NCBI GenBank assembly: GCA_032595675.1 | Contig: JAVQMD010000001.1 | Location: 1,396,640-1,460,639, forward strand | Source: Candidatus Electrothrix rattekaaiensis | GTDB lineage: Bacteria; Desulfobacterota; Desulfobulbia; Desulfobulbales; Desulfobulbaceae | Reading direction: 5' to 3' | Length of the DNA stretch: 64,000 bases | In this document: one piece after another, positions 26,021-56,273 of the stretch | Position numbering within the stretch: position 1 is the stretch's first letter | How the letters are laid out: each line of letters opens with the position of its first letter | The notes under the pieces: generated by a model | What the model saw: the letters and a program-made list of their open reading frames with translations, nothing else | Database searches by the model: none | What the model was told of the DNA's origin: nothing | Program-made: the position numbers and the translations under genes

Positions 26021-26771
26021 ACTGTTGCCCTTATTTGTTTATCCTTTGGGCATGACGATCATGCTTTTTCTTGCTGGATTCCTTCTGCTTTGGATACGTC
26101 GGAAACGAAGTGCTGTTCTGCTGATCTTCCTCTCTCTCGCTTTGCTTTGGTCTGCTTCAACCCAAGTGGCTGCCGAGTTTGTTTTGCACTCCCTGGAACG
26201 TCGTTATCCACCGCTTGCTCTCGAAGAAATACCGACTGCGGATGCGATTGTTCTTTTGGGCGGTGTTACCCGTGGGAGAGTTCCCGGGACCGGCCTGACC
26301 GATCTTGGTGGCGGAGTCGATCGAATTGTGCATGCTGCCCGGCTTTTCAAGGCCGGGAAGGCCCCGCTTCTTCTTTTATCCGGGGGCAATGCACCAGGAT
26401 ATCGATCTGAAGCCGAGGATATGGCAGATATCTTGCAACTCATGGATATACCGGCTGATAGCATATTACTGGAGACCAAGAGCAGAAATACGCAGCAAAA
26501 CGCGCTGTACAGCCAACAAATTTTGCAGCAACAGGGAATCAAAAAGATTCTGCTGGTGACCTCTGCTACCCATATGCGCCGGGCTGAGGCTCTTTTTTCA
26601 GGCATTGGAGTATCGGTTCTTCCGGCAGCGACGGATTACCAATTGGTTGAGCGCGCTCCTTCTCTCCTTGACTGGCTACCCCAGGCCGGAGCCTTGGAGA
26701 TGACAACCAAGGGGATCAAGGAGTATATCGGGTATTGGATGTATCTTATTACAAGGGCTTTGGACCGATGA
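26001..26771 (+). CDS. ElyC/SanA/YdcF-family envelope protein
   Basis: This 256-residue protein has two N-terminal membrane helices in its first 55 residues, then ADAIVLLGGVTRGR, RIVHAARLFKAGKAPLLLLSGGNAPGYRSEAEDM, SRNTQQNALYS and LLVTSATHMRRAEALF. This is the classic order of ElyC. ElyC affects undecaprenyl-phosphate use in peptidoglycan and glycan synthesis, which fits a polysaccharide locus. It overlaps the upstream paralogue by 20 nt and the downstream gene by ATGA. Confidence 0.87.
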   Translation: MNFALTKLLPLFVYPLGMTIMLFLAGFLLLWIRRKRSAVLLIFLSLALLWSASTQVAAEFVLHSLERRYPPLALEEIPTADAIVLLGGVTRGRVPGTGLTDLGGGVDRIVHAARLFKAGKAPLLLLSGGNAPGYRSEAEDMADILQLMDIPADSILLETKSRNTQQNALYSQQILQQQGIKKILLVTSATHMRRAEALFSGIGVSVLPAATDYQLVERAPSLLDWLPQAGALEMTTKGIKEYIGYWMYLITRALDR

Positions 26772-29260
26772 TCAGTATGAATCCAGAAAAGATAACAGGA
26801 ACAAGAAGGCTGGTGCTGTTTTTTACCACCATCCTCCTGAGCATAGCGGCTGTATCAAACAGCGGTTGGGCAGAACAAAAGGCTGTGAAGAGCAACGGGC
26901 AGGAAACTCAAATTATACAAAATATAAAAGATATAAAAGATATACAAGAGCTGGTCATTGCTGATAAGGGGAATGCCTCAGCTGTGATTGTTGTTGCTGA
27001 ACAGGCCGGTCCCAATGAACTGTTAGCTGCTGAGGATTTGGCAAAGTATATTGAAATGATGTCTGGAGCAACTCCGACAATTGCCAAGACTCCAGAGACG
27101 ATTGCCGTAGCTCTCAAGGGAAAACAACCGCTCATTATTATTGGTCAAGAGGCCCTCAAGGCGGATAAATCCCTTGTCGCCGCTTTGAAGAAACCGGTCA
27201 CGGTGAAGGGACTTTTACGCAGCGACGCTATTGTTCTCCGGCGTAAAGATAACCGGGTGTATCTGGCTGGCAGTAATGATCTCAGCCATTATTATGCTGT
27301 TATAGAGCTTCTGCGCCGCTGGGGATGCCGATGGTATCTGCCCACGGAGTTCGGTGAGTGTATTCCGAAGCAACCTCGACTGACTCTCGGTGAGCTGGAT
27401 TATGCCTATGCCCCGCCCTTTGAGATACGGAGCTATTGGATTTCCTGGGTCGGTGATCGCACTGGTATGGAGGAGTTTCAACGGCGTAATTTTATGACCC
27501 TTGGCAAGGGAGATTTTCCTCCGACAGGGCATGCTCTGGGGAAATATGTTCGGGATCTGAGCGAAAATATCTTTCGAGTCGCCCTGACAGCACCGGAAAC
27601 AGCAAAACATATTGCGGCTCAGGTGGAGAAAAAATACGCTGCGGGCGAGAGCTTTTCTCTGAGTATGGAGGATGGGGTTTACGAGTCTACCTATCCTGGC
27701 GATAAAAAGCTCATGCAGTTGCAATGGGATAAATATTATTTCCGTTGGAGTGTGACGGATCCCTTTTTGGAACTTTATAATAATGTGGCAGGCATTCTTC
27801 AGAAAAAATTTCCGAACAGCTCGGCCAAGATAGGTTTTCTGGCCTACACCAATATGACCATCCCGCCGGTGCGGGAAATGAAGGCGGAAAAATCCCTTTT
27901 CTGTGAGCTGGCCCCCATTGATATTGATCCTATCCACGGTATGGATTCCCTCCAATCACCGCCCCGGCAGGAATATAAGGATTTTCTCTATAAATGGGCT
28001 GAGGTGATGGACGGTCGCTTGGCGATCTATGATTACGATCAGGGGATGTTGGTCTGGCGTGACCTCCCCAATCCTTCCCATCAGGCCTTTGCTCAGGATG
28101 TGCAGCATTATCGCAAGGCCGGAATTCTGGGTATTAATACGGAAAGCCGCAATGCCATTGCCACCACCTTCCTGAACCTCTACCTGCGCGGTCAGCTGAT
28201 GTGGAACCCGGATGCAGACATCCAGGCTGAGCTGGCCGAATTCTACGAAAAATTTTACGGGCCAGCGGCAAAACCCATGCAGGCCTATTGGGAGGCCATC
28301 TTTCAGGCCTGGGAAGAGACCATTGTCACCGAGCATGAATACTTCCTTGCTCCGGCCATTTATACACCCGGCGTGCTCAAGGTCATGAAGGCCAAGATGA
28401 AGGAGGCAGAAGAACTTATTGCTTCGTTGCAAAAAAAGAAATCGCCCACTCGCCGTGAGCAGCTTTATCTGGATCGAATCGCCTTTACTCGAATGAGCTG
28501 CGATATAACAACCCTGTATTTAGAAATGGTTAAGGCTGCTGCAACAGATATTGACTATAAAAAGGCAGTGAAACTTGGTGAAAAGGCCTTAGTCATCCGG
28601 GAAAAATTAACAGCCATGAACGGAACCTTTACCACCTATAAGGGCATGAAGGTGGAAGATACCGGCTATGCCTGGTGGCCGGGTGAAGTGAAACAGTATC
28701 GTGAGCTGAATCAATGGGTGAACGGTGACAAAGGAGAGCTGGTCCTCAAACTGCCCTTGGAATGGGCCTTTCGCCGAGACCCAAAGAATATCGGGGTGAA
28801 AGGTAATTTTGCTGCTGGACCCGTGGATTTGACCTTTTGGAAGGCAAATCGAGGGACCTATACCTTGGATCTGCTCAAAGATTATCCTGTCAGCGAATGG
28901 GAGCTACTGAAGACGAACCTCTATATGCAGGCCCAAGGCATTCGCAACCCGGATCGGCAAAGTTATACTGGCTACGCTTGGTATCGCACTGAGGTCGACA
29001 TTCCAGAAGAGCAGTCGGACAAAAATTTGCATCTCCGATTCCCAGGCCTGTTCAACGAATGTTGGCTCTATCTTAATGGTGAAGAATTTGCCCATCGTAC
29101 ACAAAATAAGCTCTGGTGGAATAACGACTATCGCTTTGAGTGGGATGTTGATTTGACCGGAAAACTCAAACAGGGAAAAAATATTGTTGCCCTACGCGTG
29201 GACAGTCGGCATCATTTTGCCGGGATGTTTCGCCGGCCTTTTATTTATGCTGCGCGATAA
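26768..29260 (+). CDS. secreted DUF4838 protein, glycoside-hydrolase-like
   Basis: ATG 26768 overlaps the ElyC stop; 830 residues. A signal peptide (LVLFFTTILLSIAAVSNSGWA) ends near residue 35. Residues ~60-170 resemble the N-terminal domain that precedes GH20/GH67 barrels (AEDLAKYIEMMSGATPTIAK). Residues ~195-520 form the DUF4838 barrel, with YGW-type aromatic pockets such as RRWGCRWYLPTEFGE and YDYDQGM. The last ~130 residues look like a galactose-binding beta-sandwich (YTGYAWYRTEVDIPEE and LNGEEF). It probably acts on polysaccharide in the periplasm or outside. The substrate is unknown. Confidence 0.8.
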   Translation: MISMNPEKITGTRRLVLFFTTILLSIAAVSNSGWAEQKAVKSNGQETQIIQNIKDIKDIQELVIADKGNASAVIVVAEQAGPNELLAAEDLAKYIEMMSGATPTIAKTPETIAVALKGKQPLIIIGQEALKADKSLVAALKKPVTVKGLLRSDAIVLRRKDNRVYLAGSNDLSHYYAVIELLRRWGCRWYLPTEFGECIPKQPRLTLGELDYAYAPPFEIRSYWISWVGDRTGMEEFQRRNFMTLGKGDFPPTGHALGKYVRDLSENIFRVALTAPETAKHIAAQVEKKYAAGESFSLSMEDGVYESTYPGDKKLMQLQWDKYYFRWSVTDPFLELYNNVAGILQKKFPNSSAKIGFLAYTNMTIPPVREMKAEKSLFCELAPIDIDPIHGMDSLQSPPRQEYKDFLYKWAEVMDGRLAIYDYDQGMLVWRDLPNPSHQAFAQDVQHYRKAGILGINTESRNAIATTFLNLYLRGQLMWNPDADIQAELAEFYEKFYGPAAKPMQAYWEAIFQAWEETIVTEHEYFLAPAIYTPGVLKVMKAKMKEAEELIASLQKKKSPTRREQLYLDRIAFTRMSCDITTLYLEMVKAAATDIDYKKAVKLGEKALVIREKLTAMNGTFTTYKGMKVEDTGYAWWPGEVKQYRELNQWVNGDKGELVLKLPLEWAFRRDPKNIGVKGNFAAGPVDLTFWKANRGTYTLDLLKDYPVSEWELLKTNLYMQAQGIRNPDRQSYTGYAWYRTEVDIPEEQSDKNLHLRFPGLFNECWLYLNGEEFAHRTQNKLWWNNDYRFEWDVDLTGKLKQGKNIVALRVDSRHHFAGMFRRPFIYAAR

Positions 29261-30213: not shown

Positions 30214-31920
30214 TTATGCAAAATGAGTATCCATTGATTTGATGCGACCGTGGATAGGCGGCACAGCTTGGTCGTCAATCCACACATCAAGGACCGTGGG
30301 TAACTGGGCTGTCAGGATATCCTCAACCAATGAGTCGGACAGAGGTACGTTCGCGTCAAGATGAATGCCGTGAGCTCCCAGTCCTTCAGCAATCTTGACA
30401 TAATCGACCCGTTGAAAGCAGGGTTCCATTGCGTCAGGAACGGCTTTTTTATACAAGCGACGTCCATGATAGACCATGCCCAACATGGCGTTATTCAAGA
30501 TTACCCAAATCACCGGAACCTTATAGTTGACCGCTGTGGCGACCTCAAAACCGTTCATCAGAAAGGAGCCGTCCCCGACTATGGCCACCACCGGACGGTC
30601 GGGAGCGGCTAATCTAGCTCCGACCGGAGCTGCAACAGCATAGCCCATAGAGGCATATCCCAAGGAGACAAAAAAAGAGGCGGGTTGATCAATCGTCATG
30701 TAATGCACAGTCCACGCCATAGCCGTACCTGCATCTGCAAAAAAAATTGTATTCTTCGGAAACTTTTCTTGAATATCACAGATGAGCTGAGCAGGATGGT
30801 AAAGGTTACCACTTGATGTCATTTCTTCTTTTTTGGCAGGCTTTTTCTTTGGCAGTACCGGTTTTTTTCGCTTTTTTTTCGCCAACTCACCTGACTCTAT
30901 TATTCGTTTAACAGCCTTTGACAGCTTTCTTAAATTGATCTTTGCATCCCCCTCCATCGGGTGAGATGTAGGATAATTTTTTCCGATTTTTTCTGGATCC
31001 ACATCCAGATGAATCAAATGACCGGAAGGCTGAATATGCTCGTCCCAGCCGTTGGTCATCAGTTCACTAAAACTGGTACCCACAGCAAAGATTACATCTA
31101 TGTCACGCGTAATAATGTATTCTTCCGCTACAGGAGAACCAGCGAAGCCCAAGACGCCCAGAGATAATTCATGAGATTCGGGAAAAACTCCCTTTCCCTT
31201 GGGCGAAGTGGCTACAGGAATTTGCAAGAGTTCAGCTAGGTCGAGAAGTTCCGACATAGCCTGCGAAAGATAGACTCCCCACCCTGCTATAATTGCTATT
31301 TTTCTTGCTTTTACAAGGAGTTCCGCTGTCTTGTCCACATGTTCCGCATCAAAAAGTCGCGTTTTCCCTTGGCTTGGAAATAGAGATAAGTCTTGGCATT
31401 CCAAAGTTCTCTTCATAATATCTGCTGGCATATTGAGATGCACCGGCCCCCCGGGATTACTCAAAGCAAGGCGAATAGCCTTTTGCAGCATATACTGACT
31501 GCGGTTTTCTGACATCAGGATCCTGCTGTATTTTGTGATACTGCTGAAGATTTTCATAAGATCAATCTGTTCAGGCCCTGACTCCTGTAAAGCCCCTTTG
31601 CCGAACAGCGAAGTGGCAACCTGACCGGTTAAGGCGAGTATTGGGATTTGATCGACATATGAGAAAGCCAAGCCGGTAATCAGGTTAGTGGCCCCAGGTC
31701 CAGACGTAGAGTAACACACTCCGAGTTTCCCTGATAAGCGGGCGTAACCGTCAGCCATAAAAGCAGCTCCCTCTTCATGTTTTGTCACAACCGGTATGAT
31801 ACCGTACGTATTTTTGTAGAGCGCGGTGTTAAGGTCTTCAATGGCACCTCCGGGAATACCGAACATATATTTGACACCGGTCCGACCTAATACTTCGACG
31901 ATCATTTCAGCGGTATTCAT
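30214..31920 (-). CDS. thiamine-diphosphate-dependent enzyme, acetolactate-synthase-like
   Basis: This 568-residue protein has the three-domain fold of acetolactate synthase relatives. E49 in TKHEEGAAFMADGYAR activates the cofactor, STSGPGATNLITGLAFSYVDQIP follows, and the ThDP/Mg motif runs from GDGS (449-452) to NN (476-477). An unusual Lys/Pro-rich stretch at residues 347-366 joins the middle and C-terminal domains. It is the last gene of a four-gene operon with an acyltransferase, an SDR and a sulfotransferase. It more likely makes an acyloin or decarboxylates a 2-oxo acid for a special product than serves branched-chain amino acid synthesis. Confidence 0.85.
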   Translation of the reverse strand: MNTAEMIVEVLGRTGVKYMFGIPGGAIEDLNTALYKNTYGIIPVVTKHEEGAAFMADGYARLSGKLGVCYSTSGPGATNLITGLAFSYVDQIPILALTGQVATSLFGKGALQESGPEQIDLMKIFSSITKYSRILMSENRSQYMLQKAIRLALSNPGGPVHLNMPADIMKRTLECQDLSLFPSQGKTRLFDAEHVDKTAELLVKARKIAIIAGWGVYLSQAMSELLDLAELLQIPVATSPKGKGVFPESHELSLGVLGFAGSPVAEEYIITRDIDVIFAVGTSFSELMTNGWDEHIQPSGHLIHLDVDPEKIGKNYPTSHPMEGDAKINLRKLSKAVKRIIESGELAKKKRKKPVLPKKKPAKKEEMTSSGNLYHPAQLICDIQEKFPKNTIFFADAGTAMAWTVHYMTIDQPASFFVSLGYASMGYAVAAPVGARLAAPDRPVVAIVGDGSFLMNGFEVATAVNYKVPVIWVILNNAMLGMVYHGRRLYKKAVPDAMEPCFQRVDYVKIAEGLGAHGIHLDANVPLSDSLVEDILTAQLPTVLDVWIDDQAVPPIHGRIKSMDTHFA

Positions 31921-31954
31921 ATCTTACCTCACAGGCAGTATAATTTTTATGGTA

Positions 31955-33340
31955 TCAAAAAGGAATCCCCTCCACCTCTCTTTCCATCTGTTCCCTTGGA
32001 AGGCTGGCAATCTCTTTGTCTATCGCAAGAAAAAGATCTTTTACTTTTTTTTCATCATGAAGATTTTTACTGAATCCTGTTGAGAGAGTAATCGTCTCAC
32101 CAAATCCAGTTGCCCCGATGGCAAGTAACGGGGCGTAGATAACTGGAGGGATGATAACAGCGTCTGTTACTTCAATTTCATCGAACGCAATATCTTCTCC
32201 TTTGATAAGCCCCATGTTGGTAAACCACGGTGGGATATCTTTTGGGCCGATCAGATAATTCAGTTTCGAAGTAAGGTTATGGATTGTGCAAGAGGCCCAA
32301 GCAGGCAACCATTGTAGACTAAAGATGGAGTTTTTGTTAATATCTAAACCTAGATAGTTCGCCTTGCGATCCTTCATTTGTCCATGTACTAAGGCTATTG
32401 TCTCTAGCAGGGTATCTCCAATATCATGCCCAATATTAAGAAGGAACATTTTAGCCAGATTGGTAAGAGCTTCTCCCTGCTGGTTGGCACGATAACGGCG
32501 TAAATCGACTGTCACACCAATTCGGAGCGGAGTACCTATATGAGGTTGAATAATTTTATAAAGCCCGCGCAGGATACATGCCGTAAGAATATCATTAACC
32601 GTAACTCCATGGTGCCCTGCAACATGCTTGATTCTTTTACATTGGTCAGGGGGGATGTGATGGAGAAGAAAAGTACAATCAGTCGCTGGATGCAGGTGTA
32701 GAAAAGGAAAGGTCCAGTTCTTTCTCGGAAAAAGGCTGTCATGCCAGTTTCGCAGACTCAACAGTAAAATTTTGAGCCGATCATATAGACTCAAAAGATC
32801 TGTGATTTGCTTAGATGAACGCCTTGCTGGCAGGTTACTTTGCGGCTTAAATGCCGGGTTGATTTTAAGGGTTGCGTAGAAAGAGGAGAGAAGGCGAACA
32901 TATTCTTTAAGCCCGCCCGCATCTGAAACAATATGGTTTACTCTAATGCAGAGTGTATCTGTTTCCGCCCGAAAAATATGTGCTTGAACCATAGGGTCAT
33001 TGTAGGGATCACAATCAGAACTCATACATCGGATGAGAGATTCTTTTGGGCAATCGGTTTCAGTTAATCGGCAGAATTCGAGATCGTCAAGATCCTCTCT
33101 TCGTTGCCAAAACGGGCCTTTCCTGTTTTCGATAAACCTACACCCCAGAATGGGCTCGGCATCCACGGTGAGTCGGATCGCCTTTGCTAGTCGTTCGAGA
33201 TCAAGTTTACTGTTAAAAGTTATAATGTAGTGGAGCTGTACATTACAAACATGACGAATGCTTGAAAGAACTTTATCTCCCTTGACGGCTTGAAAGCACG
33301 TAGGAGTATCCTTTTTTTCTTTTTTTTTCATGACCGCCAT
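31955..33340 (-). CDS. condensation/PapA/alcohol-acyltransferase superfamily protein
   Basis: This 461-residue protein has the HxxxD active site as H136-IVS-D140 followed by AGG, in the superfamily position ~140 residues from the N-terminus. A second half contains GVTVNDILTACILRGL and RIGVTVDLRRYR, as in wax-ester, alcohol and Pap acyltransferases and NRPS condensation domains. It probably joins an acyl thioester to a hydroxyl or amino acceptor. It is spaced 36 nt from the SDR and 34 nt from the ThDP enzyme on the same strand. No carrier-protein domain is present in the operon. Confidence 0.78.
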   Translation of the reverse strand: MAVMKKKEKKDTPTCFQAVKGDKVLSSIRHVCNVQLHYIITFNSKLDLERLAKAIRLTVDAEPILGCRFIENRKGPFWQRREDLDDLEFCRLTETDCPKESLIRCMSSDCDPYNDPMVQAHIFRAETDTLCIRVNHIVSDAGGLKEYVRLLSSFYATLKINPAFKPQSNLPARRSSKQITDLLSLYDRLKILLLSLRNWHDSLFPRKNWTFPFLHLHPATDCTFLLHHIPPDQCKRIKHVAGHHGVTVNDILTACILRGLYKIIQPHIGTPLRIGVTVDLRRYRANQQGEALTNLAKMFLLNIGHDIGDTLLETIALVHGQMKDRKANYLGLDINKNSIFSLQWLPAWASCTIHNLTSKLNYLIGPKDIPPWFTNMGLIKGEDIAFDEIEVTDAVIIPPVIYAPLLAIGATGFGETITLSTGFSKNLHDEKKVKDLFLAIDKEIASLPREQMEREVEGIPF

Positions 33341-33376
33341 TTTGCAGGTAAAATCTTGGCTACTCTCGTGTTAGAG

Positions 33377-34129
33377 TTATTCTGGATGATTTACGGACAG
33401 AACGTCCGCTCCTCCATCGACAACCCATACGCTGCCCGTCACATAGCCAGCTTCAAGCTGAGCGCATACTACATGCGCAACTTCCTTGGCTTTACCAAGG
33501 CGTTTCAGGGGAATATGCTGCTCTAACAATGCATGGCGCGCAGTCCTTTTTTCTTGATCAAGATGTAATTTTTTTAATAAAGGGGTGTCGATAGCACCTG
33601 GAGAAACCGCGTTGACTCTAATTTTTTTGGGAGCCAACTCCAAAGCAAGGCTTCGAGTGGCTGCCTCCAAGGCCCCTTTCGTTGCAGCGTACAGTGCTCC
33701 TTTGACCAGTCCGTTATTAACGGCGATGGAAGAAATATTCGTAATACTGCCCTGTTTTTTTTCTAGAGCTGGCAATGCTTCCCGTATTAACTCCAACGGC
33801 CCTCGGATATTTGTATCAAAAAACAACGCGTAATCAGATAACAATATTGAACCAAAAGGAATAAATGTCGCTATTGCCGCATTATTGACAAGTACATCTA
33901 GTCCGTTATCCCCAAAAAAGGACGCCAAGTGCTTTATGTCATCAGGCTTAGCCATGTCAGCAACGACGCATTCAACGTCCATCTCTGTAGCTGCTCTCTT
34001 GAGCCTTTCTTTATCGCGACCAGAAATAACAACTGAATAGCCCTTTTCCTTTAACAAAGCTGCTGTTGCGTAGCCTATTCCAGAGTTCCCACCTGTAACC
34101 AAAGCTGTTTTAGGTTTTTTTCTTGTCAT
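33377..34129 (-). CDS. short-chain dehydrogenase/reductase
   Basis: This 250-residue classical SDR has the NAD(P)-binding motif TGGNSGIG at 12-19, NNAA at 82-85 and the catalytic S134, Y147 and K151 (YAATK). A C-terminal VNAVSPGAIDTPLL and GSVWVVDGGA complete the fold. The basic residue in SGRDKER after the second strand is compatible with NADPH use. In this operon it could reduce the ketone made by the ThDP enzyme or an acyl intermediate; this is inference. Confidence 0.9.
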   Translation of the reverse strand: MTRKKPKTALVTGGNSGIGYATAALLKEKGYSVVISGRDKERLKRAATEMDVECVVADMAKPDDIKHLASFFGDNGLDVLVNNAAIATFIPFGSILLSDYALFFDTNIRGPLELIREALPALEKKQGSITNISSIAVNNGLVKGALYAATKGALEAATRSLALELAPKKIRVNAVSPGAIDTPLLKKLHLDQEKRTARHALLEQHIPLKRLGKAKEVAHVVCAQLEAGYVTGSVWVVDGGADVLSVNHPE

Positions 34130-34222
34130 TTAAAACTGTTGGGTTGTTCTGTGATGATTGTGTTGGTAATTTCTATTGAAATTCCACACGAGTTACAATG
34201 GATTTTTCAGCTACACATCTTG

Positions 34223-35446
34223 CTAAGAAAACAGTTTAAACCTCTCGAGGTAATTACCAAAAAGGCGAGAAATAAATTCGTCGCTTAACCCATAGTTTCC
34301 AGCGAAATACTCGTGGAGACCATGTTTATTTTTAGGATTATAAAACAGCCATTTCTTCATTTTTTCTGTAACATTCTTGTTTGGTATAAAATCAAAATAA
34401 TCATATATGTTATGGGATACCTCCAGAGGGTTTTCTACGAGTTTTTCATAGTTGATATCCAAGAAACGTTCTTCCCCATATTTACTTCGAATTTGCATGT
34501 TGTTATCCAACATATTTTTCCAAAACTGTGCTGCGTCTCTGCCAAGCTGGTTACTAACGGGCTTATTTTGAAGATTTTTTCTAACAGTTGTCAGCATGCT
34601 GCATAGAGAGGATAGGCTTTGAGCAGGAGATCTATGGGTTTGTATAATACAGGCATCGGGAAAGATCTTAAGCAAATGATCTATCCCGAACATATGAAAA
34701 GGGCTTTTCAAAATCCAACGCTTCCTAGAGTTACGAGGAGTGCTAAATTGAAGTATTTGCAGTTGTTTTTTATAATATTTATACACAGGAAGCATATCTT
34801 GATGATTCAACCAGTTATAATACGAAGGCAAGTCAAAAAGAATATGAAACAGAGAAGACATAAATTCTTTATCAAGGAGATGAAAGCACTCTTCGGGTTG
34901 CCTTATGTATGAAGGATGCATCATGTTGATATTCGGTACAACAGTATTTCGTATTCGAAGAAATTGCGCGGCAGCTCGAATACGTAGGTCACTCTTTTGT
35001 GAGTCTGGGTATAATTTTGGGAAAGGCGCAGGGAAGAGCCCCTCCCAGTACGCAAGGGATCTAGCGCAAGAGGCTTGTGTTAACAAACGTTGCAGCAAGG
35101 TGGTACCCGTACGTGGTAAACTGATAATAAATAATGGTCGATCTATTCGTTCTTTTTTAATCTCTGGATTTTTTTTACAATATTCCTCAATGGTTAAGCG
35201 GCCATAAAGATATGTTGTCATTAGTGAATGAATGTAAAACCAGCCAAATGAGTTGAGGTTTCCTTCGTTCCTGCAAGAATGAAGTAATCTGCTCAAAGCA
35301 GTTACGAAATTTGTATTTCCCCAATCATCCAGACCTACTTTTTTGCTGGCCTTGTTCATTAAAAAAACTTCTGATTTTTCTTCTGGATTTCTGTTATAAT
35401 AACAAGATGCTATTTTTTTTAATCGTTTTTGATACCGGGTCTTCAT
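34223..35446 (-). CDS. PAPS-dependent sulfotransferase family protein
   Basis: ATG 35446 is chosen because GGAGAAG lies just upstream; 407 residues. The 5-prime-phosphosulfate loop IISLPRTGTTLLQ is at about 108-120. A later WILKSPFHMFGIDHLLKIFPDACIIQTHRSPAQSLSSL supplies the 3-prime-phosphate site, as in the Sulfotransfer_3 family. The start of the protein is basic and lacks a signal peptide, so it is cytoplasmic. It is the first gene of the four-gene operon. It may sulfate a lipid or polyketide-like alcohol; the acceptor is unknown. Confidence 0.83.
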   Translation of the reverse strand: MKTRYQKRLKKIASCYYNRNPEEKSEVFLMNKASKKVGLDDWGNTNFVTALSRLLHSCRNEGNLNSFGWFYIHSLMTTYLYGRLTIEEYCKKNPEIKKERIDRPLFIISLPRTGTTLLQRLLTQASCARSLAYWEGLFPAPFPKLYPDSQKSDLRIRAAAQFLRIRNTVVPNINMMHPSYIRQPEECFHLLDKEFMSSLFHILFDLPSYYNWLNHQDMLPVYKYYKKQLQILQFSTPRNSRKRWILKSPFHMFGIDHLLKIFPDACIIQTHRSPAQSLSSLCSMLTTVRKNLQNKPVSNQLGRDAAQFWKNMLDNNMQIRSKYGEERFLDINYEKLVENPLEVSHNIYDYFDFIPNKNVTEKMKKWLFYNPKNKHGLHEYFAGNYGLSDEFISRLFGNYLERFKLFS

Positions 35447-35547
35447 TTTTTTCTTCTCCGGGAAGAAATAAAACAAGTAGCTTTTTTTGGGGAAATGATT
35501 TGGAGCGCATCAATTTGCTGGAAAAACATATTTCACAAGGACTAACT

Positions 35548-35856
35548 ATGCAAAATAAAATAACTTCTGTTGCTTTTTCTTTCATTAAGCCTGAGTTTGT
35601 AAACGACGTCATTCAAATATATCAAAATGCTGTTGACAATCACACTGCTCTCAAAGGGTGTGTTGAGATAAAACTATTTAGAAAGATCAGTATTTCAAAT
35701 GAATTTATGATCGTGTCAAAATGGGACAGTATAGAAGCAAGAAAAAAATATTTAAAATCAGACTTTCATAAAAAAACTATAGAAAAATTGAAAAAGTACA
35801 GAGAAAGACCGCCTGTTATGGATGATTTTGAAGAGATTACAGAGAGATTATTCTAA
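35548..35856 (+). CDS. antibiotic biosynthesis monooxygenase (ABM)-fold small protein
   Basis: This 102-residue protein starts at ATG 35548 after AAGGA. The upstream in-frame extension overlaps the divergent sulfotransferase gene and is rejected. The ferredoxin-like ABM pattern is visible: VAFSFIKPEFVNDVIQIYQNAV, then ELFR-type strands, FMIVSKWDSIEARKKYL and FHKKTIEKL. ABM proteins act as cofactor-free oxygenases, haem monooxygenases or lyases on small aromatic or polyketide substrates. Its divergent position beside the sulfotransferase suggests membership in the same pathway. Confidence 0.7.
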   Translation: MQNKITSVAFSFIKPEFVNDVIQIYQNAVDNHTALKGCVEIKLFRKISISNEFMIVSKWDSIEARKKYLKSDFHKKTIEKLKKYRERPPVMDDFEEITERLF

Positions 35857-35917: not shown

Positions 35918-38107
35918 CTAAAAATGGAAAATTAGCTCAGCATAAGCCACCCTTTCTTCCATAGGTATATCATTAGATATAGAGGTCGAAATCGGTTCTC
36001 GAATATTTTCATTAAAAATATTGCGTACAGAAAAAGCCAGATCAATATGTTGCGTAATATTATTTTTTCGTATCTTCATATTCGCAATACTGTTATCTTC
36101 GATGTTTTCCCGGCTATCATCTTTTGCCCTATGGCGATCGCCGATCCAGAAATATTGCGCATTGAGATACCATTCAGGCATGAAATTCCAGTGTGCGTTA
36201 AGGTACAATTGCATGCCAGGCGCGTCGGCCACAACTGTACCTGTATTCCTATCTTCCGAGTCTTGCAAGGCGAAATTGCCGCTCATTGTTAAGGACGGCA
36301 TAACCTCCCACTCCAGCTCAACCTCGAAGCCATGTCCTTTTTGATTAAGAAAGTTCCGCGCTGTTTTCGTCGTGGCTGGAGAAGGATCAGGAATATAATC
36401 AATAAGGCCTTCTATGTCATAAGCAAAAACACTGAGAATAGTTTTTAAAGAAGGCGTAGGTCTATAATCTAAAGCGAATTCATAAGTATCTATGGTTTCC
36501 GGTTCAAGGTTTGGGTTACCAAGAACTATCGGGTTATTTTTAACATAGCTCTCGGCAAAAGACGGGGGGCGGAATGCCCGACCATACATGAGCTTACTGG
36601 TCAGATCGTAACGTGTTTCCCATACCAAGGCAATACGAGGATTGATGGTTTTCCCAAAATCGCTGTAATGATCGTAACGCACTCCAGTCGTCAATTCCCA
36701 GTTTTTAACAAAAGTCCATTCATCTTGTAGAGAGGCATGGAGAATCGTACGATTCTGGTCAGTCATAAACATAGCATCCGTACCTGTAACATCCACCATA
36801 GTTCCGTCAATGGTGCTGGGTAATGCTTTGTCATTCAAAACACCTGGCCCAACGTTCTTGGACGACTTGGCATTTTCATCCTGTATTTTTCCCCCTGAAG
36901 CAATGCGCCAAACATGCTGGTGCATGCCGTCATATTTGCAAATAAAATCAAAAGCTAACTGATTATCAATAAGGGTTGGATGACCGTAAATGCCCTCAGT
37001 GAAAGTCGTTATTCCGGCAGTTGGCGATGTGAAAATGTTACCGTCTGTACCTACGGCAACAGTTGATCCAGGAGGAAGGAACTGATACAGGACGTCTTCT
37101 TTACGATAGAGATAATTAAGTTGGGCCGTAAGTGAAAAATTTTCTATCGAATCCTCGTTCTTCCAAGTTATATCACTAAGAATCTGTTCAGAGTTTATTT
37201 TGCTTTCCGGCCCTAATGCCCCAGCACTACCAGTACCTCCTTCATAGTCATCTAGAAACCAGCCCCAGAAACGGATTGTCAAGTTTTTACGACTGAAGTT
37301 GGCCATGATATTGTAATTTTCAAAATCAGTGTGCAAGGCCCCCGGAGCCAACGAGGCATTCGTGCCAAAGGCTTGATCCAGCGTAGTTTGAAGGTCAGCG
37401 TCAATAATACGTTTATCGTCACTGCCGCCTCGCCAATATTCCAATCCTATGCCAACGTCCCAACCTTTGTACTGTCCTCCATGTTGTCCCCAGATATCCA
37501 AACCGTCAAAGGAAGACATGCGTACACCAGTATGCATCCCCTCGACTTCAAAACGATCCTTGGTGATAACATTGATAGTGCCTGCAAAGGCATCAGCACC
37601 GTAGAGGGCAGAGCCAGGTCCACGTACTACTTCAATACGGGCTATCATAGAGACCGGCAAACGAAAGCCTGCTGGACGGCTACCATTATATGGCTTGGTA
37701 AAAGGAATGCCATTCATCAACACCAAGACTTGCGGATTCAGGCTGGTATGGATGCCCCGTATGGAATAGATAGAATCAAGATGGGCAAAAGAAGGTGTAA
37801 TATGAAGACCGGGCACAGTTTCCAACACCTCGTCAAGGGTGGTGGCACCGAGCTTTTCGATATCTTCTGCTGTAATAACCGAGGCCACTGAAGGAGCCAA
37901 GTGAACGGGCTTCAGGCTACCGGTTGCTGTGAGCAAAAGACGATCAGTACGATAGACATCCTCTTCCTGGAGCCCTTGTCCGAACATCTCTTCAAAGGCT
38001 TGGATATTTTCTTCGCTTATCGTAAAATCCTCGTTCTCTACTTGGGTTCTTCCTTGCGTATAATTTAAAAGGAGGAAAAGAGCGATTGCGACAGTTGTTT
38101 TGTACAT
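35918..38107 (-). CDS. TonB-dependent outer-membrane receptor
   Basis: This 729-residue protein has a signal peptide (KTTVAIALFLLLNYTQG), then a plug domain (VASVITAEDIEKLGATTLDEVLETVPGL, SIRGIHTSLNPQVLVLMNGIP, IEVVRGPGSALYGADAFAGTINVIT). A 22-strand-type barrel runs to an aromatic C-terminal residue (LIFHF). It imports a scarce ligand with TonB energy. The ligand cannot be read; the barrel is of the vitamin/colicin-receptor type. It is last in an operon behind two solitary substrate-binding proteins. Confidence 0.92.
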   Translation of the reverse strand: MYKTTVAIALFLLLNYTQGRTQVENEDFTISEENIQAFEEMFGQGLQEEDVYRTDRLLLTATGSLKPVHLAPSVASVITAEDIEKLGATTLDEVLETVPGLHITPSFAHLDSIYSIRGIHTSLNPQVLVLMNGIPFTKPYNGSRPAGFRLPVSMIARIEVVRGPGSALYGADAFAGTINVITKDRFEVEGMHTGVRMSSFDGLDIWGQHGGQYKGWDVGIGLEYWRGGSDDKRIIDADLQTTLDQAFGTNASLAPGALHTDFENYNIMANFSRKNLTIRFWGWFLDDYEGGTGSAGALGPESKINSEQILSDITWKNEDSIENFSLTAQLNYLYRKEDVLYQFLPPGSTVAVGTDGNIFTSPTAGITTFTEGIYGHPTLIDNQLAFDFICKYDGMHQHVWRIASGGKIQDENAKSSKNVGPGVLNDKALPSTIDGTMVDVTGTDAMFMTDQNRTILHASLQDEWTFVKNWELTTGVRYDHYSDFGKTINPRIALVWETRYDLTSKLMYGRAFRPPSFAESYVKNNPIVLGNPNLEPETIDTYEFALDYRPTPSLKTILSVFAYDIEGLIDYIPDPSPATTKTARNFLNQKGHGFEVELEWEVMPSLTMSGNFALQDSEDRNTGTVVADAPGMQLYLNAHWNFMPEWYLNAQYFWIGDRHRAKDDSRENIEDNSIANMKIRKNNITQHIDLAFSVRNIFNENIREPISTSISNDIPMEERVAYAELIFHF

Positions 38108-38134: not shown

Positions 38135-39085
38135 TCAATCAACCACTTGTGTCGCCATGTCAAGGGAGTTCCGGTGCAGGGACAATCCTATGCGCTCAGC
38201 GGTAGTACGGTTAATAATAATCTGCGTCCCCAGAGGAGGCATCACTCCTATATAATCGGGATGTTGATGGCGGTTGATGATATTTTTTGCTATAGAGGCA
38301 GCCTGTGAACCAATATCAGCTAGATCAGGATTAATAGAAAGTATAAGGCCGTGCTCCGCTATATTTTTCGACTGACCAATACAAGGCAATTTTTCTCTGA
38401 TACAGCGTATTTTCAGCCAGTCCATATTTTCAAGAGTGTAGATTACCGGGTCGTTCAAGACGAGAAAGGCATCTACCTTTTGCCGCATCTTTTTAAAAGA
38501 ACGTTGGAAATCTTTTGAGCGAGCGATTTCCTTGCTGTATAATTCAATATTGAAAATTTCAGCTGCCTTCTTGGCCTGTTGCAGCACCTCGCGACTGTGT
38601 GGGCTGTATATAACCCCTATTCGTTTAATGTCTGGAGAAAGGATTGTAATGTTGGCAAATTTTGTCCCAGGGGCTATCTCGCCCGCTATGCCAGTCATAT
38701 TTTTTTGATTCATGAGATTGTATCGTTGCCAGTTTAACACCAAGGCGAAAATCACAGGTATGTCCTGATGCTCGTGAGTCCAGAGTTTAGCAGTGAAGGC
38801 CGCTTTGGCACCCAAGGCGAATATTAATCGAGGATTGCTAGAGAAGAGCTTACGTTTGAGAGCAGGATCTTTTTTAATGTCACCTTGCAGGTTAAAAACA
38901 CGGACAGAGTGGCCGATTTCAGAACGAAAAGCCTTCATAGGGCTATGATAGACGGTTTCGTTATCCGAGAGCAGAAGAGCTACCGGAAGATCAGTATCGG
39001 CAGCGAACAGTGATACAGGTAACTGTCCGCACATAACCGACAGAAGAAGTAAAAACACTTTAGCGTGCATAGTTATGCCATGCAT
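38135..39085 (-). CDS. ABC-transporter substrate-binding protein (ABC_sub_bind family)
   Basis: ATG 39085 or 39070 is the likely start, overlapping the upstream gene by up to 26 nt. A signal peptide (VFLLLLSVMCGQLPVSLFA) follows. The type-1 periplasmic fold is indicated by FSSNPRLIFALGAKAAF, IPVIFALVLNW, RIGVIYSPHSREVLQQAKKAA and DAFLVLNDPVIYT. No permease or ATPase gene is adjacent. With the TonB receptor downstream, it may scavenge or sense a ligand brought into the periplasm. Confidence 0.8.
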   Translation of the reverse strand: MHGITMHAKVFLLLLSVMCGQLPVSLFAADTDLPVALLLSDNETVYHSPMKAFRSEIGHSVRVFNLQGDIKKDPALKRKLFSSNPRLIFALGAKAAFTAKLWTHEHQDIPVIFALVLNWQRYNLMNQKNMTGIAGEIAPGTKFANITILSPDIKRIGVIYSPHSREVLQQAKKAAEIFNIELYSKEIARSKDFQRSFKKMRQKVDAFLVLNDPVIYTLENMDWLKIRCIREKLPCIGQSKNIAEHGLILSINPDLADIGSQAASIAKNIINRHQHPDYIGVMPPLGTQIIINRTTAERIGLSLHRNSLDMATQVVD

Positions 39086-39893
39086 CAATTTGCAACATCT
39101 CCATGAGATCAGCAGAATCATCGGAGTCATTAGCCTCCAAGAATATTTTTTTCAGCTCCATAATTTTCTCATCCAAAACTTTCCCGTTTCCTGCGCAAAG
39201 TATGGGCAGGGGTATAGGCTGTGATTCAGCCAAAGGACGCACAATTTGGAGGATACGGGGATTGATTCTTCCGATTCTCTGTAAATTATTTTTAGAAACC
39301 AAGGCCGCATTCACCTGCCCGACAGCCAGTGCGAACAGGGCATCTGAATCCTTTGGGGTCATAATAATGTTTAATGAATTTGATTTGATCTTAAATTGAT
39401 TAAACAAAAGACGATCCAACAGATCAGGGGTTTCATTCCCCATGGTTGTTATGGCAAGAAGTTTGTTGCTTAGCCCCTGTAAGGTGAGCGTTGAGTCCTG
39501 TGATGTTAACAGAACCTTACGATAAGTTGTACGGCCCTTGTGAACTGGTTGCAGAAGAGGTTTCAACTTGGATTTTTTTTTGCTTTGTTGATAATACCAA
39601 TCAGGAAGAAAAACAAATGCAGGAATATTTTCGAGCATTTCACGATGAAAGTCATGGTATTTAGCAAAGGGTTGGAAGTTGAGAACAAGATCCTTTTTAT
39701 CCAGAAAACGTTCCATCTCCTGTTTGAGACGTGTGAGATTGCTTTGCGAGGAATCAGGGTTGAAATAGTAAAATTTTTCGCTGTCGGTTCCGGCTGCATA
39801 ACCGGTATTAATCATGATTGTTATTCCGCACAACATAAAAAGCGATGTCATGAGGATACAGATAATTCCTTCTTTGAAAGAGATATTTTTCAC
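39060..39893 (-). CDS. PhnD-like periplasmic substrate-binding protein
   Basis: The gene starts at GTG 39893; 277 residues with an N-terminal hydrophobic segment (IICILMTSLFMLCGITIMI). The type-2 binding fold shows YRKVLLTSQDS, LTLQGLSNKLLAITTMGNETPD, SDALFALAVGQVNAALVSKNNL and a C-terminal helix ending LMEMLQIDAW, typical of phosphonate-binding PhnD relatives. It is first in a three-gene operon with ABC_sub_bind and TonB-receptor genes. No phn or pst transporter genes are nearby. Confidence 0.75.
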   Translation of the reverse strand: MKNISFKEGIICILMTSLFMLCGITIMINTGYAAGTDSEKFYYFNPDSSQSNLTRLKQEMERFLDKKDLVLNFQPFAKYHDFHREMLENIPAFVFLPDWYYQQSKKKSKLKPLLQPVHKGRTTYRKVLLTSQDSTLTLQGLSNKLLAITTMGNETPDLLDRLLFNQFKIKSNSLNIIMTPKDSDALFALAVGQVNAALVSKNNLQRIGRINPRILQIVRPLAESQPIPLPILCAGNGKVLDEKIMELKKIFLEANDSDDSADLMEMLQIDAWHNYAR

Positions 39894-49476: not shown

Positions 49477-50295
49477 TTATGTTGTTATACTTTGCATTGA
49501 TTCTATATCGTCTCCAAGATAGGCCTTGATCACCTCTGGATTATTGCGGACTTCGTTCGGCGTACCTTCCGCGATTTTTTTGCCGTAATCCATCACAAAG
49601 ATATGGTCGGACAGACTCATGACCAACTTCATATCGTGCTCGATCAGGAGGATGGAGATGCCGTCATCTCGGATCTCGGTAATCAATTCATCCAGCTCCA
49701 CGGTTTCCTGGGGATTCATGCCAGCTGCCGGTTCATCAAGCAGGAGCAGGGCCGGATCGGTTGCCAAAGCCCTGGCTATCTCCAGCCTGCGTTGCGCTCC
49801 ATAGGGTAAGTTCTTGGCAAATTCATTGGCTAGCTCGGCGAGACCGACTTTTTCTAAGAGGGCAAAGGAGCGGGCAATGACCTCTTTTTCTTCCTTAATT
49901 GTTCGCTTGTCGCGAAAGATTGCTCCGAGCACCCTGGCCTTGGTTCGGCAATGGCAACCGATCATGACGTTTTCCAGGACACTCATATCAGGGAAGAGGC
50001 GGATATTTTGAAAGGTCCGGGCAAGTCCCTGCACCGTCACCTGATTGGGTTTTAAGCCGTTGAGTCGTTTTGTGTCTTGTCCGGGCGGGGTCAGGAGGAG
50101 ATTCCCGGCAGTCGGTTTGTAAATCCCAGTCAGGCAGTTGAAAAAGGTGGTCTTGCCTGCTCCGTTCGGGCCGATCAGAGCGGCGATTTCCCCCTGCCGA
50201 ACCCGGATGTTGAGGTTATCCAAGGCCCTGATGCCGCCGAACTGCATGGTTAGGTCGCTGACCTCAAGGATAGGTGTTCCCTGTTGTTCGGTCAT
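49477..50295 (-). CDS. livG: branched-chain amino acid ABC transporter ATPase LivG
   Basis: This 272-residue protein has Walker A GPNGAGKT at 42-49, the LivG-typical long insertion between Walker A and the signature, the signature region LPYGAQRRLEIARAL, Walker B LLLLDEP and the H-loop LLIEHDMKLVMSL. It energises high-affinity uptake of branched-chain amino acids with LivM/LivH. Its likely permease partner LivM is 4.6 kb upstream at 54,881 on the same strand, the two being separated by accessory genes. Confidence 0.92.
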   Translation of the reverse strand: MTEQQGTPILEVSDLTMQFGGIRALDNLNIRVRQGEIAALIGPNGAGKTTFFNCLTGIYKPTAGNLLLTPPGQDTKRLNGLKPNQVTVQGLARTFQNIRLFPDMSVLENVMIGCHCRTKARVLGAIFRDKRTIKEEKEVIARSFALLEKVGLAELANEFAKNLPYGAQRRLEIARALATDPALLLLDEPAAGMNPQETVELDELITEIRDDGISILLIEHDMKLVMSLSDHIFVMDYGKKIAEGTPNEVRNNPEVIKAYLGDDIESMQSITT

Positions 50296-54880: not shown

Positions 54881-56116
54881 CTATGCGCTTTCTCTCCTGT
54901 ACGTCCGCCGCACCGTGGAAATCAAGCCCTTGGGCCGAAAGACCATCATGATGACCAGGGTTGCACCGAAAACCAGCATCCGGTAATCGGCAAAGGCCCG
55001 TAGATATTCCGGCAGCAGCATCAGGACCAGGGCCGCAATGATCACCCCGATGATAGATCCCATCCCGCCCAGCACCACGATGCAGAGGATAAGAGCGGAT
55101 TCAAGAAAGGTAAAGGAAGAAGGGTTGACAAAGGTAGTTTTTGCGGCAAAGATCACCCCGACGATACCGGCCCAGAAGGCACCTAGGGCAAAAGCGGTCA
55201 GCTTGGTTTTTGTTTTGTCGATCCCCATAGCCTGACAGGCGATCTCGTCTTCGCGCAGGGCGAACCAAGCACGACCGATCCGGGAATTTTGCAGACGATT
55301 CACCACAAACACGGTAAAGAGCACCAGAGCGATCATCAGGTAATAGAGATAGTTGATGGATTGGTCCAGAGACAGCTCCATCCCGAAAAAACCGGGTCGG
55401 GGAACACCGGCGATTCCGCTGGGACCATGAGAAAACTCTGTCCAGTTTTCCAGGACCAAGCGGATGATTTCGCCGAAACCTAGGGTAACAATAGCCAAGT
55501 AGTCGCCTCTCAGGCGTAAGACCGGAAAACCGAGCAGGATACCGAAACAGGCTGCCAATAAGCCTCCGATGGGCAGGGCTACCCAGAAGCCGATTCCGAA
55601 ATGGAGGTTGAGCAGGGCATAGGTATAGGCCCCGACAGCATAAAAGGCCACATAGCCAAGATCAAGCAGGCCCGCCACCCCGACAACGATATTGAGCCCC
55701 AGTCCCAAGACCACGTACATCAGGGCGGTGATCATGATGTTGATTTGATAGGTGGAAAGGTACAACGGAAAAGCAGAAAAAATAACGAGAAGCACTCCAA
55801 GTACCGGTACAAATACTTTTGGTTCGTTGAGCAGGATGTGCTGCCAATCCTTTTCATCTTTTTCTAGGGTAATTCCAGGGGTAACGCGCAATTTTTTCTT
55901 TTCTTCCTGTACCGTCTTCCAGCCCAGAAAAACTCGGCTTAACAGGTACAGAAAAAAGCTGGCAAGGGCCACATAGAGCATATTCTGCCAACGCCAGACA
56001 ACGGTTTCTTCATAGGGATTCACCTTGATGACCATGATGGGAAAGGTGAGAAAACAGAACCAGAGAGCGACCAGAAATGCTTTTTTCAGGTGTTGGAATG
56101 AGATTATGTAGTGCAT
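54881..56116 (-). CDS. livM: branched-chain amino acid ABC transporter permease LivM
   Basis: ATG 56116 is taken as start (411 residues); an upstream in-frame extension to 56203 looks unlike the family. About ten membrane spans are present. ALMYVVLGLGLNIVVGVAGLLDLGYVAFYAVGAYTYALL and RLRGDYLAIVTLGFGEIIRLVLENW are LivM signatures, as is ALREDEIACQAMGIDKTKTKLTAFALGAFWAG. It should partner LivG and LivH. An island of accessory genes lies between it and livG. Confidence 0.9.
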   Translation of the reverse strand: MHYIISFQHLKKAFLVALWFCFLTFPIMVIKVNPYEETVVWRWQNMLYVALASFFLYLLSRVFLGWKTVQEEKKKLRVTPGITLEKDEKDWQHILLNEPKVFVPVLGVLLVIFSAFPLYLSTYQINIMITALMYVVLGLGLNIVVGVAGLLDLGYVAFYAVGAYTYALLNLHFGIGFWVALPIGGLLAACFGILLGFPVLRLRGDYLAIVTLGFGEIIRLVLENWTEFSHGPSGIAGVPRPGFFGMELSLDQSINYLYYLMIALVLFTVFVVNRLQNSRIGRAWFALREDEIACQAMGIDKTKTKLTAFALGAFWAGIVGVIFAAKTTFVNPSSFTFLESALILCIVVLGGMGSIIGVIIAALVLMLLPEYLRAFADYRMLVFGATLVIMMVFRPKGLISTVRRTYRRESA

Positions 56117-56273
56117 ATTCAGCGTAATCTTAAGAACTCTTGCAGGATGTACTGCTGTCCCGTATGGATCTTGCCGGAAAATTTCGGATGCCTGCCTCGG
56201 CACATCATAGCTGAATCGCTCTGTTAGTGCAATCTATCAGTCGTTTTTCTCCTTCGAGATATGTAGCCTCCGT

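Follow-up and report, generated by a model that had tools for sequence, protein, structure and literature searches.

What product, if any, would be made by a run of genes that brings together thiamine diphosphate (ThDP) chemistry, ketone reduction, an acyltransferase fold and sulfation, and why does such a run lie beside an outer-membrane receptor? The question is raised by a locus of the cable bacterium Candidatus Electrothrix rattekaaiensis, within a stretch of 64,000 nucleotides referred to here as the window (NCBI GenBank assembly GCA_032595675.1, contig JAVQMD010000001.1, positions 1,396,640 to 1,460,639). Comparison with relatives in the order Desulfobulbales reveals the operon to be one form of a cassette that varies beside constant receptor and ThDP genes, and the gene content indicates that the locus probably makes a small sulfate-capped molecule. 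The wider reading, in which a small capped molecule is made by the locus, taken back up and probably sensed, is put forward tentatively, with slightly less confidence than would be needed to call it probable; gene content supports its biosynthetic half, while linkage points to the sensing half. The genes concerned are the following, in window coordinates.

30214..31920, minus strand: ThDP-dependent enzyme, probable carboligase, with three TPP_enzyme Pfam domains over cut-off
31955..33340, minus strand: stand-alone acyltransferase-like enzyme of the condensation fold (chloramphenicol acetyltransferase, CAT, superfamily), termed C; PF00668 39.0 bits (cut-off 30.6), with HxxxD present as HIVSD
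33377..34129, minus strand: short-chain dehydrogenase/reductase (SDR) oxidoreductase
34223..35446, minus strand: sulfotransferase (ST) of the type using phosphoadenosine phosphosulfate (PAPS), PF13469, clade STw, as in genomes G527 and G531; Sulfotransfer_3 145.1 bits (cut-off 27)
35548..35856, plus strand: small ABM-fold protein; ABM 43.0 bits (cut-off 23.1)
35918..38107, minus strand: TonB-dependent outer-membrane receptor of the locus
38135..39085, minus strand: periplasmic binding protein of the ABC_sub_bind type (ABCsub), with no permease gene beside it
39060..39893, minus strand: periplasmic binding protein of the Phosphonate-bd type (Phn), likewise with no permease gene beside it

The ThDP, C, SDR and ST genes are separated by gaps of 34, 36 and 93 bp on one strand, and the start of the ABM gene, which reads away, is 101 bp from that of ST; the ST start at 35446 was set by eye to fit the orthologue in genome G527, which has a similar N-terminus. 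These five genes had been described in an earlier reading of the letters alone (the sequence-only reading), and domain scores and coordinates agree with that description, as does the evidence for a dedicated set joining ThDP chemistry, SDR, acyltransferase fold and sulfotransferase. The ABM gene goes with the set, since ST, ABM and ThDP genes are also found together in G527 and G531. The receptor and binding proteins do adjoin the operon, as had been noted, and are better regarded as members of the same recurrent locus than as mere neighbours. The locus proteins that were scanned include no polyketide synthase or nonribosomal peptide synthetase (NRPS), no phage families were matched by ST or ABM, and a promoter and terminator scan gave no excess over shuffles (20 against 16.8 ± 4.7, and 4 against 7.3 ± 2.9). 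The GC contents of the ST (0.369) and ABM (0.294) genes are low compared with the ThDP gene (0.470) and trpA (0.538), which suggests that ST and ABM are recent arrivals.

The ThDP subfamily, delimited at E <= 1e-140, occurs in 26 of 242 sampled genomes of the order and in 16 of its 68 sampled genera. Among the genes within 12 kb of the ThDP gene at these 26 loci, a TonB receptor is present at 22, at least one binding protein at 21, and the members of a citryl-CoA-lyase-like pair, CS2 and CS1, at 20 and 19, respectively. A sensor kinase or regulator follows at 17, a sulfotransferase of any kind at 16 (13 of clade STb, three of STw) and an SDR at 11. Rarer still are C (five), adenosine phosphosulfate (APS) kinase (four), methyltransferase and ABM (three each), B12-radical SAM protein (two) and β-ketoacyl synthase III (KAS III; one). 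The four loci lacking a TonB gene (L161, L163, L026 and L164) all have a contig edge less than 4 kb upstream. Constancy is greatest for the receptor, the binding proteins and the ThDP enzyme, and the modifying genes are the variable element; the loci of relatives usually include the CS pair and a two-component system, both of which are missing from the window locus. On whether the four genes co-occur elsewhere, as the sequence-only reading had required, the outcome is mixed: ST, SDR and ThDP genes are combined at six loci (window, L024, L118, L120, L121 and L164), but the exact set with C is found at only two, the window and L024. A strictly conserved four-gene operon is thereby rejected, and the operon is therefore one version of a mix-and-match cassette.

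Within the order, CS2 and the ThDP enzyme each occur in 26 of the 242 genomes and share 21 (hypergeometric 4e-21, with kinship ignored). Five genomes have CS2 and no ThDP match at 1e-140 (G411, G423, G444, G457 and G480), although G423 has a match at 53% and G480 a 150-residue piece at 59%. Of the 395 genomes sampled across the phylum, six contain a CS2 relative, two of these inside the order. In G325 and G343 (L150 and L151), from another family of the phylum, the CS pair is accompanied by a TonB receptor, a binding protein and a kinase, with a distant ThDP enzyme (34–35%) on the opposite strand. Outside the order, G153 combines the CS pair with a ThDP enzyme (51%), a TonB receptor (28%) and a kinase, and G039 has the pair and a kinase, with no ThDP gene within the 14.9 kb read. 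Both proteins of the pair in G509 resemble citryl-CoA lyase (6hxp; 2.5e-20 for CS1 and 2.8e-7 for CS2), but fall far below the NCBIfam cut-offs. The window genome holds no CS2 relative, and its best CS1 match (0.003) lies in a 473-residue frame.

Three proteins of the genome match the ThDP N-terminal family: IlvB, a PRK08322-type acetolactate synthase and the window enzyme. IlvB (L015) reaches 837.7 bits against TIGR00118 (cut-off 538.35) and its gene is adjoined by ilvN (TIGR00119, 215.8 bits, cut-off 56.9), and the synthase of the other family (L016) scores 799.8 bits against PRK08322 (cut-off 509). TIGR00118 is also the top NCBIfam model for the window enzyme, at 417.7 bits, below the cut-off; the RFDDR and GMVRQWQ of IlvB are missing from it, SFSEL and GMVYHGR being present, and no ilvN was found among its scanned neighbours. 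With ilvB and ilvN as separate genes, the enzyme is not the only biosynthetic acetolactate synthase of the cell, a role that the sequence-only reading had named as fatal to its proposal. A biosynthetic acetohydroxyacid synthase (AHAS) was rejected on the sub-cut-off score, the absent IlvB stretches and the separate ilvB-ilvN, and the window enzyme is probably a carboligase distinct from the AHAS of the cell. It belongs to the TPP_enzyme N/M/C class and retains the GDG motif and KHE, the Glu of which is presumably the catalytic Glu of ThDP enzymes. An acyloin synthase of the ScyA (scytonemin) type was also rejected (NF035923 and NF035927, 286.9 and 308.6 bits, cut-offs 1020 and 1000). The closest sequences in the PDB are BbmA (8x3x, 3.9e-143) and CsmA (8x3z, 3.9e-95), the latter sharing an NNAxLGMVYHG stretch with the window enzyme; no paper on their pathways or source organisms was found in the literature searched, and a text search of PMC12247030 gave no match. 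The Electrothrix copies, five in all, group as a single clade (100/100) in a tree of 25 of the 26 order proteins (L161 was missed by the motif filter), G423, IlvB of this genome, an AlsS-like protein and three proteins from outside the order. Plasmid records gave no ThDP match at E 1e-100.

The C enzyme is an optional member of the locus. The PF00668 match covers its N-terminal part, its AlphaFold model has a pLDDT of 91.7, and in an alignment of 47 sequences D140 is invariant and H136 is conserved in at least 90%; fold and HxxxD together place it in the condensation/CAT acyltransferase superfamily. NRPS condensation domains were the best Foldseek matches, with TRI3, PapA5 and AzeD also among the matches listed. 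PapA5 and TRI3 are stand-alone condensation-fold acyltransferases that share the fold of the window enzyme at 13–14% identity. A wax ester synthase/diacylglycerol acyltransferase was rejected (TIGR02946, 19.1 bits, cut-off 309.95). A G275 homologue with one internal stop was excluded from the alignments; the first piece of the G568 gene entered alignment A1 and neither A2 nor A3, and A3 comprises 44 of 45 full-length proteins (L033 out, L024 duplicate) with the window, L023 and L024 proteins. A profile search of genome contigs with the C alignment returned 57 loci across many phyla, only two of which (L033 and L052) have a ThDP enzyme or CS proteins by tblastn, and plasmid records contained four relatives at 27–30%. 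The family is widespread and mostly away from the ThDP locus; within the order it occurs in five of 242 genomes, all five with the ThDP enzyme (1e-5, with kinship ignored). Elsewhere, L048 (Firmicutes bacterium HGW-Firmicutes-15) has six clustered stand-alone condensation-family genes and an SDR, and an SDR and stand-alone condensation enzyme pair recurs in Desulfatibacillum and relatives (L010, L012, L014, L050 and L053), with no ThDP enzyme in the stretches read.

Sulfation appears to have joined the locus more than once. The window ST is a PAPS sulfotransferase by its Sulfotransfer_3 score and its PRTGTT motif, which we take to be the phosphosulfate loop. STb, from 13 loci, and STw, from three loci that are effectively two lineages, are separate clades (100/100 each) in a tree of 16 cluster rows and 15 proteins from 14 further loci, the latter a subset of the matches to the window ST. 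At 24% identity to STb, the window ST was rejected as an orthologue of the usual cluster sulfotransferase; its identity to the non-cluster rows is 29–39%. As a query, it matches 16 other genomes of the phylum at E <= 1e-20, excluding the cluster-bearing G145 (STb at its locus) and G301. This pattern is most simply read as a sulfotransferase having been recruited twice to the same locus. APS kinase lies within four versions of the locus, beside STb, and a PAPS source for this cell is encoded at G000:C2, where a protein matches the APS kinase family with 186.4 bits. Because two sulfotransferase clades occur at the locus, and APS kinase in four versions of it and in the own genome, the product is likely to be sulfated. 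The APS kinase domain of this genome (L181, G000:C2:828656-829114) lies inside a 576-residue open frame, and may be fused to another domain.

Variation is equally evident within Electrothrix, where the ThDP subfamily is found in five of eight genomes. The window version has ABM, ST, SDR, C and ThDP genes; that of G509 has CS1, CS2, SDR, C and ThDP; that of the near-identical G527 and G531 has a B12-radical SAM protein, ST, ABM and ThDP; and that of G568 (Ca. Electrothrix aarhusensis) has CS1, CS2, a methyltransferase, a different SDR, a split C gene and ThDP. Record L052 (MTKO01000066.1, Candidatus Electrothrix aarhusensis) carries the same genes as G568. In three genomes of the genus, of which two are near identical, ABM adjoins a sulfotransferase of clade STw. 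The B12-binding radical SAM protein of the G527/G531 version (L148:12031-13455) is over the cut-off of TIGR04072 ('lipid biosynthesis'). The C gene of G568 (L025:7880-9240) lies in two overlapping frames, through a frameshift or an assembly error, and given this broken gene the G568 version may be without an acyltransferase.

Divergence is mostly greater in the receptor, binding proteins and cassette than in the surrounding genes. Between the window and G509, identity within the locus is 79% for Phn, 85% for ABCsub, 76% for the TonB receptor, 77% for the SDR, 59% for C and 73% for the ThDP enzyme, compared with 82% for DUF2301, 86% and 89% for DUF218b and DUF218a, 90% for DUF4838 and NTrase, 95% for trpA and 97% for GT and IlvB. 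Between the window and G568, the ThDP enzyme is 93% identical and the neighbouring DUF2301 and DnaB-like genes are 93–95% identical, with lower values for ABCsub (83%), Phn (76%), the TonB receptor (73%), the C piece (38%) and the SDR (32%). This divergence could stem from diversifying selection or from horizontal exchange. Among the flanking genes, the DUF4838 protein (window 26735-29260) has glycosyl-hydrolase-2-like domains and lies upstream of the trpA-like gene.

Outside Electrothrix, 17 of 21 loci include a sensor kinase or regulator. In the window genome, a kinase (42% identity) and a hybrid regulator (49%) lie next to each other elsewhere, at G000:C1 2.06 Mb. Periplasmic binding proteins tied to a sensor kinase and hybrid regulator, the arrangement at the loci of relatives, are the basis of sensing of the LuxP-LuxQ type; the binding-protein families differ, and the TonB receptor is an extra feature of the present locus.

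Taken in sequence, the proposed pathway would begin with the ThDP enzyme coupling two α-keto-acid or acyl units into a hydroxyketone core of the acyloin type, as its family and intact ThDP motifs suggest. The core would be elaborated by a partner that uses acyl thioesters: the HxxxD enzyme in the window, and elsewhere the CS pair or KAS III, families that all act on such substrates. The SDR would then reduce the ketone and, in a step that gene content supports, the ST would place the sulfate of PAPS on a hydroxyl; a methyltransferase would be an alternative capping enzyme. From linkage, the TonB receptor would return the product to the periplasm, where the two binding proteins would hold it and the kinase and hybrid-regulator pair, at the locus in most relatives and elsewhere in this genome, would read it. 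Gene content between TonB and ThDP changes from one relative to the next, so that the variant made and read would be specific to each lineage. A partial parallel is offered by the cyanobacterin and deoxyenhygrolide furanolides, for which acyloin formation by the ThDP enzyme CybE, followed by the ketosynthase CybF, has been proposed (PMC8777810), and one relative, G415, has KAS III beside the ThDP enzyme in like manner. CybE is likened to the locus enzyme by pathway logic, not sequence; the parts of that paper concerned with the pathway mention no TonB receptor or kinases, and 'sulfotransferase' is absent from its main text.

Several observations weigh against this account of a molecule made, recaptured and sensed. 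The ThDP subfamily is dispensable, because three of the eight Electrothrix genomes lack it (one of them 69% complete). None of the five Electrothrix loci has the kinase pair, nor do four of the 21 others (L161, L163 and L026, near contig edges, and L113), and the pair of this genome is tied to the locus by homology only. The catalytic histidines seem, when the sequences are compared by eye with the usual motifs, to have been lost from CS1 and CS2, making their chemistry doubtful. The window ST served as the query for the outside rows of the sulfotransferase tree, a choice that biases those rows towards STw. The identity ranges of locus and flanks touch (ABCsub at 85%, DUF2301 at 82%), and horizontal exchange could have produced the divergence without signalling. 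Lastly, a Liv-type ABC ATPase (window 49477-50295) and a LivM permease over cut-off (54881-56203), components of a branched-chain amino-acid transporter, lie 10–15 kb from the locus and leave room for ordinary uptake, with a permease partner for the binding proteins.

Uptake is central to an alternative that we consider unlikely, in which the product is a metallophore: a hydroxyketone or carboxylate would chelate a metal, the receptor and binding proteins would import the complex, and the kinase pair would sense metal or stress. The prevalence of TonB receptors and binding proteins is in its favour, as are the NCBIfam matches listed for the TonB receptor (25 of 31): these are models of TonB receptors, those for heme, B12 and siderophores included, and none reaches its cut-off. 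Against it, no ABC permease or ATPase was over the Pfam cut-off among the 10 proteins scanned at 29.3–40.9 kb, the Liv system notwithstanding, and no siderophore synthetase was found among the scanned proteins. The parts of PMC11247825 that cover cable-bacterium TonB transporters for nickel, in which the locus is not mentioned, point both ways: the nickel demand of these bacteria is unusual, but the TonB-dependent transporters are unrelated to known nickel transporters, and another such transporter lies by a Nik/Opp/Dpp operon.

No better placed is an ordinary secondary-metabolite cassette, for an antimicrobial or surface molecule, with receptor and kinase serving self-uptake or regulation only. 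It would suit the differing cassettes of relatives, the low GC of ST and ABM and the patchy presence in Electrothrix, but sits poorly with the constancy of receptor, binding proteins and ThDP enzyme amid varying modifying genes, and with the scan of 10 window proteins at the locus, in which no gene for export or resistance turned up. Catabolic uptake is markedly less plausible. Both ThDP enzymes and citryl-CoA lyases are able to work in the lyase direction, and TonB receptors and binding proteins do import, so that a compound might be taken up, cleaved by the ThDP enzyme, oxidised by the SDR and split by the CS proteins; the sulfotransferases at 16 loci and APS kinases at four fit synthesis better. 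It is scarcely credible that the ThDP enzyme serves branched-chain amino-acid synthesis as an acetolactate synthase and lies in a chance neighbourhood: TIGR00118 is its highest-scoring NCBIfam model, but the score falls short of a cut-off that IlvB easily exceeds, the IlvB stretches are absent, ilvN is separate and the neighbourhood is recurrent.

If the locus does make, recapture and sense a capped molecule, a bolder and rather speculative extension would be that the Desulfobulbales, with the cable bacteria among them, use a chemical signalling system of a new class, based on a ThDP-built, thioester-elaborated hydroxyketone, capped by sulfate or methyl and retaken via TonB to binding proteins and a kinase pair, with cassette and receptor co-diversifying into lineage dialects; in the filamentous cable bacteria the signal could mark kin or coordinate filaments. 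Among the matches listed from the open-licence literature, with subscription papers outside its scope, there was no published description of the locus and no known cell-cell signal of cable bacteria. The analysis joins sulfation, a citryl-lyase-like pair and an unassigned subfamily of ThDP enzymes to a TonB/kinase module, as one testable unit in a sulfur-cycling order. For the multicellular, electrically connected cable bacteria, it provides a concrete candidate gene set for a cell-cell signal, whose product could be a chemical signal not yet described in bacteria.

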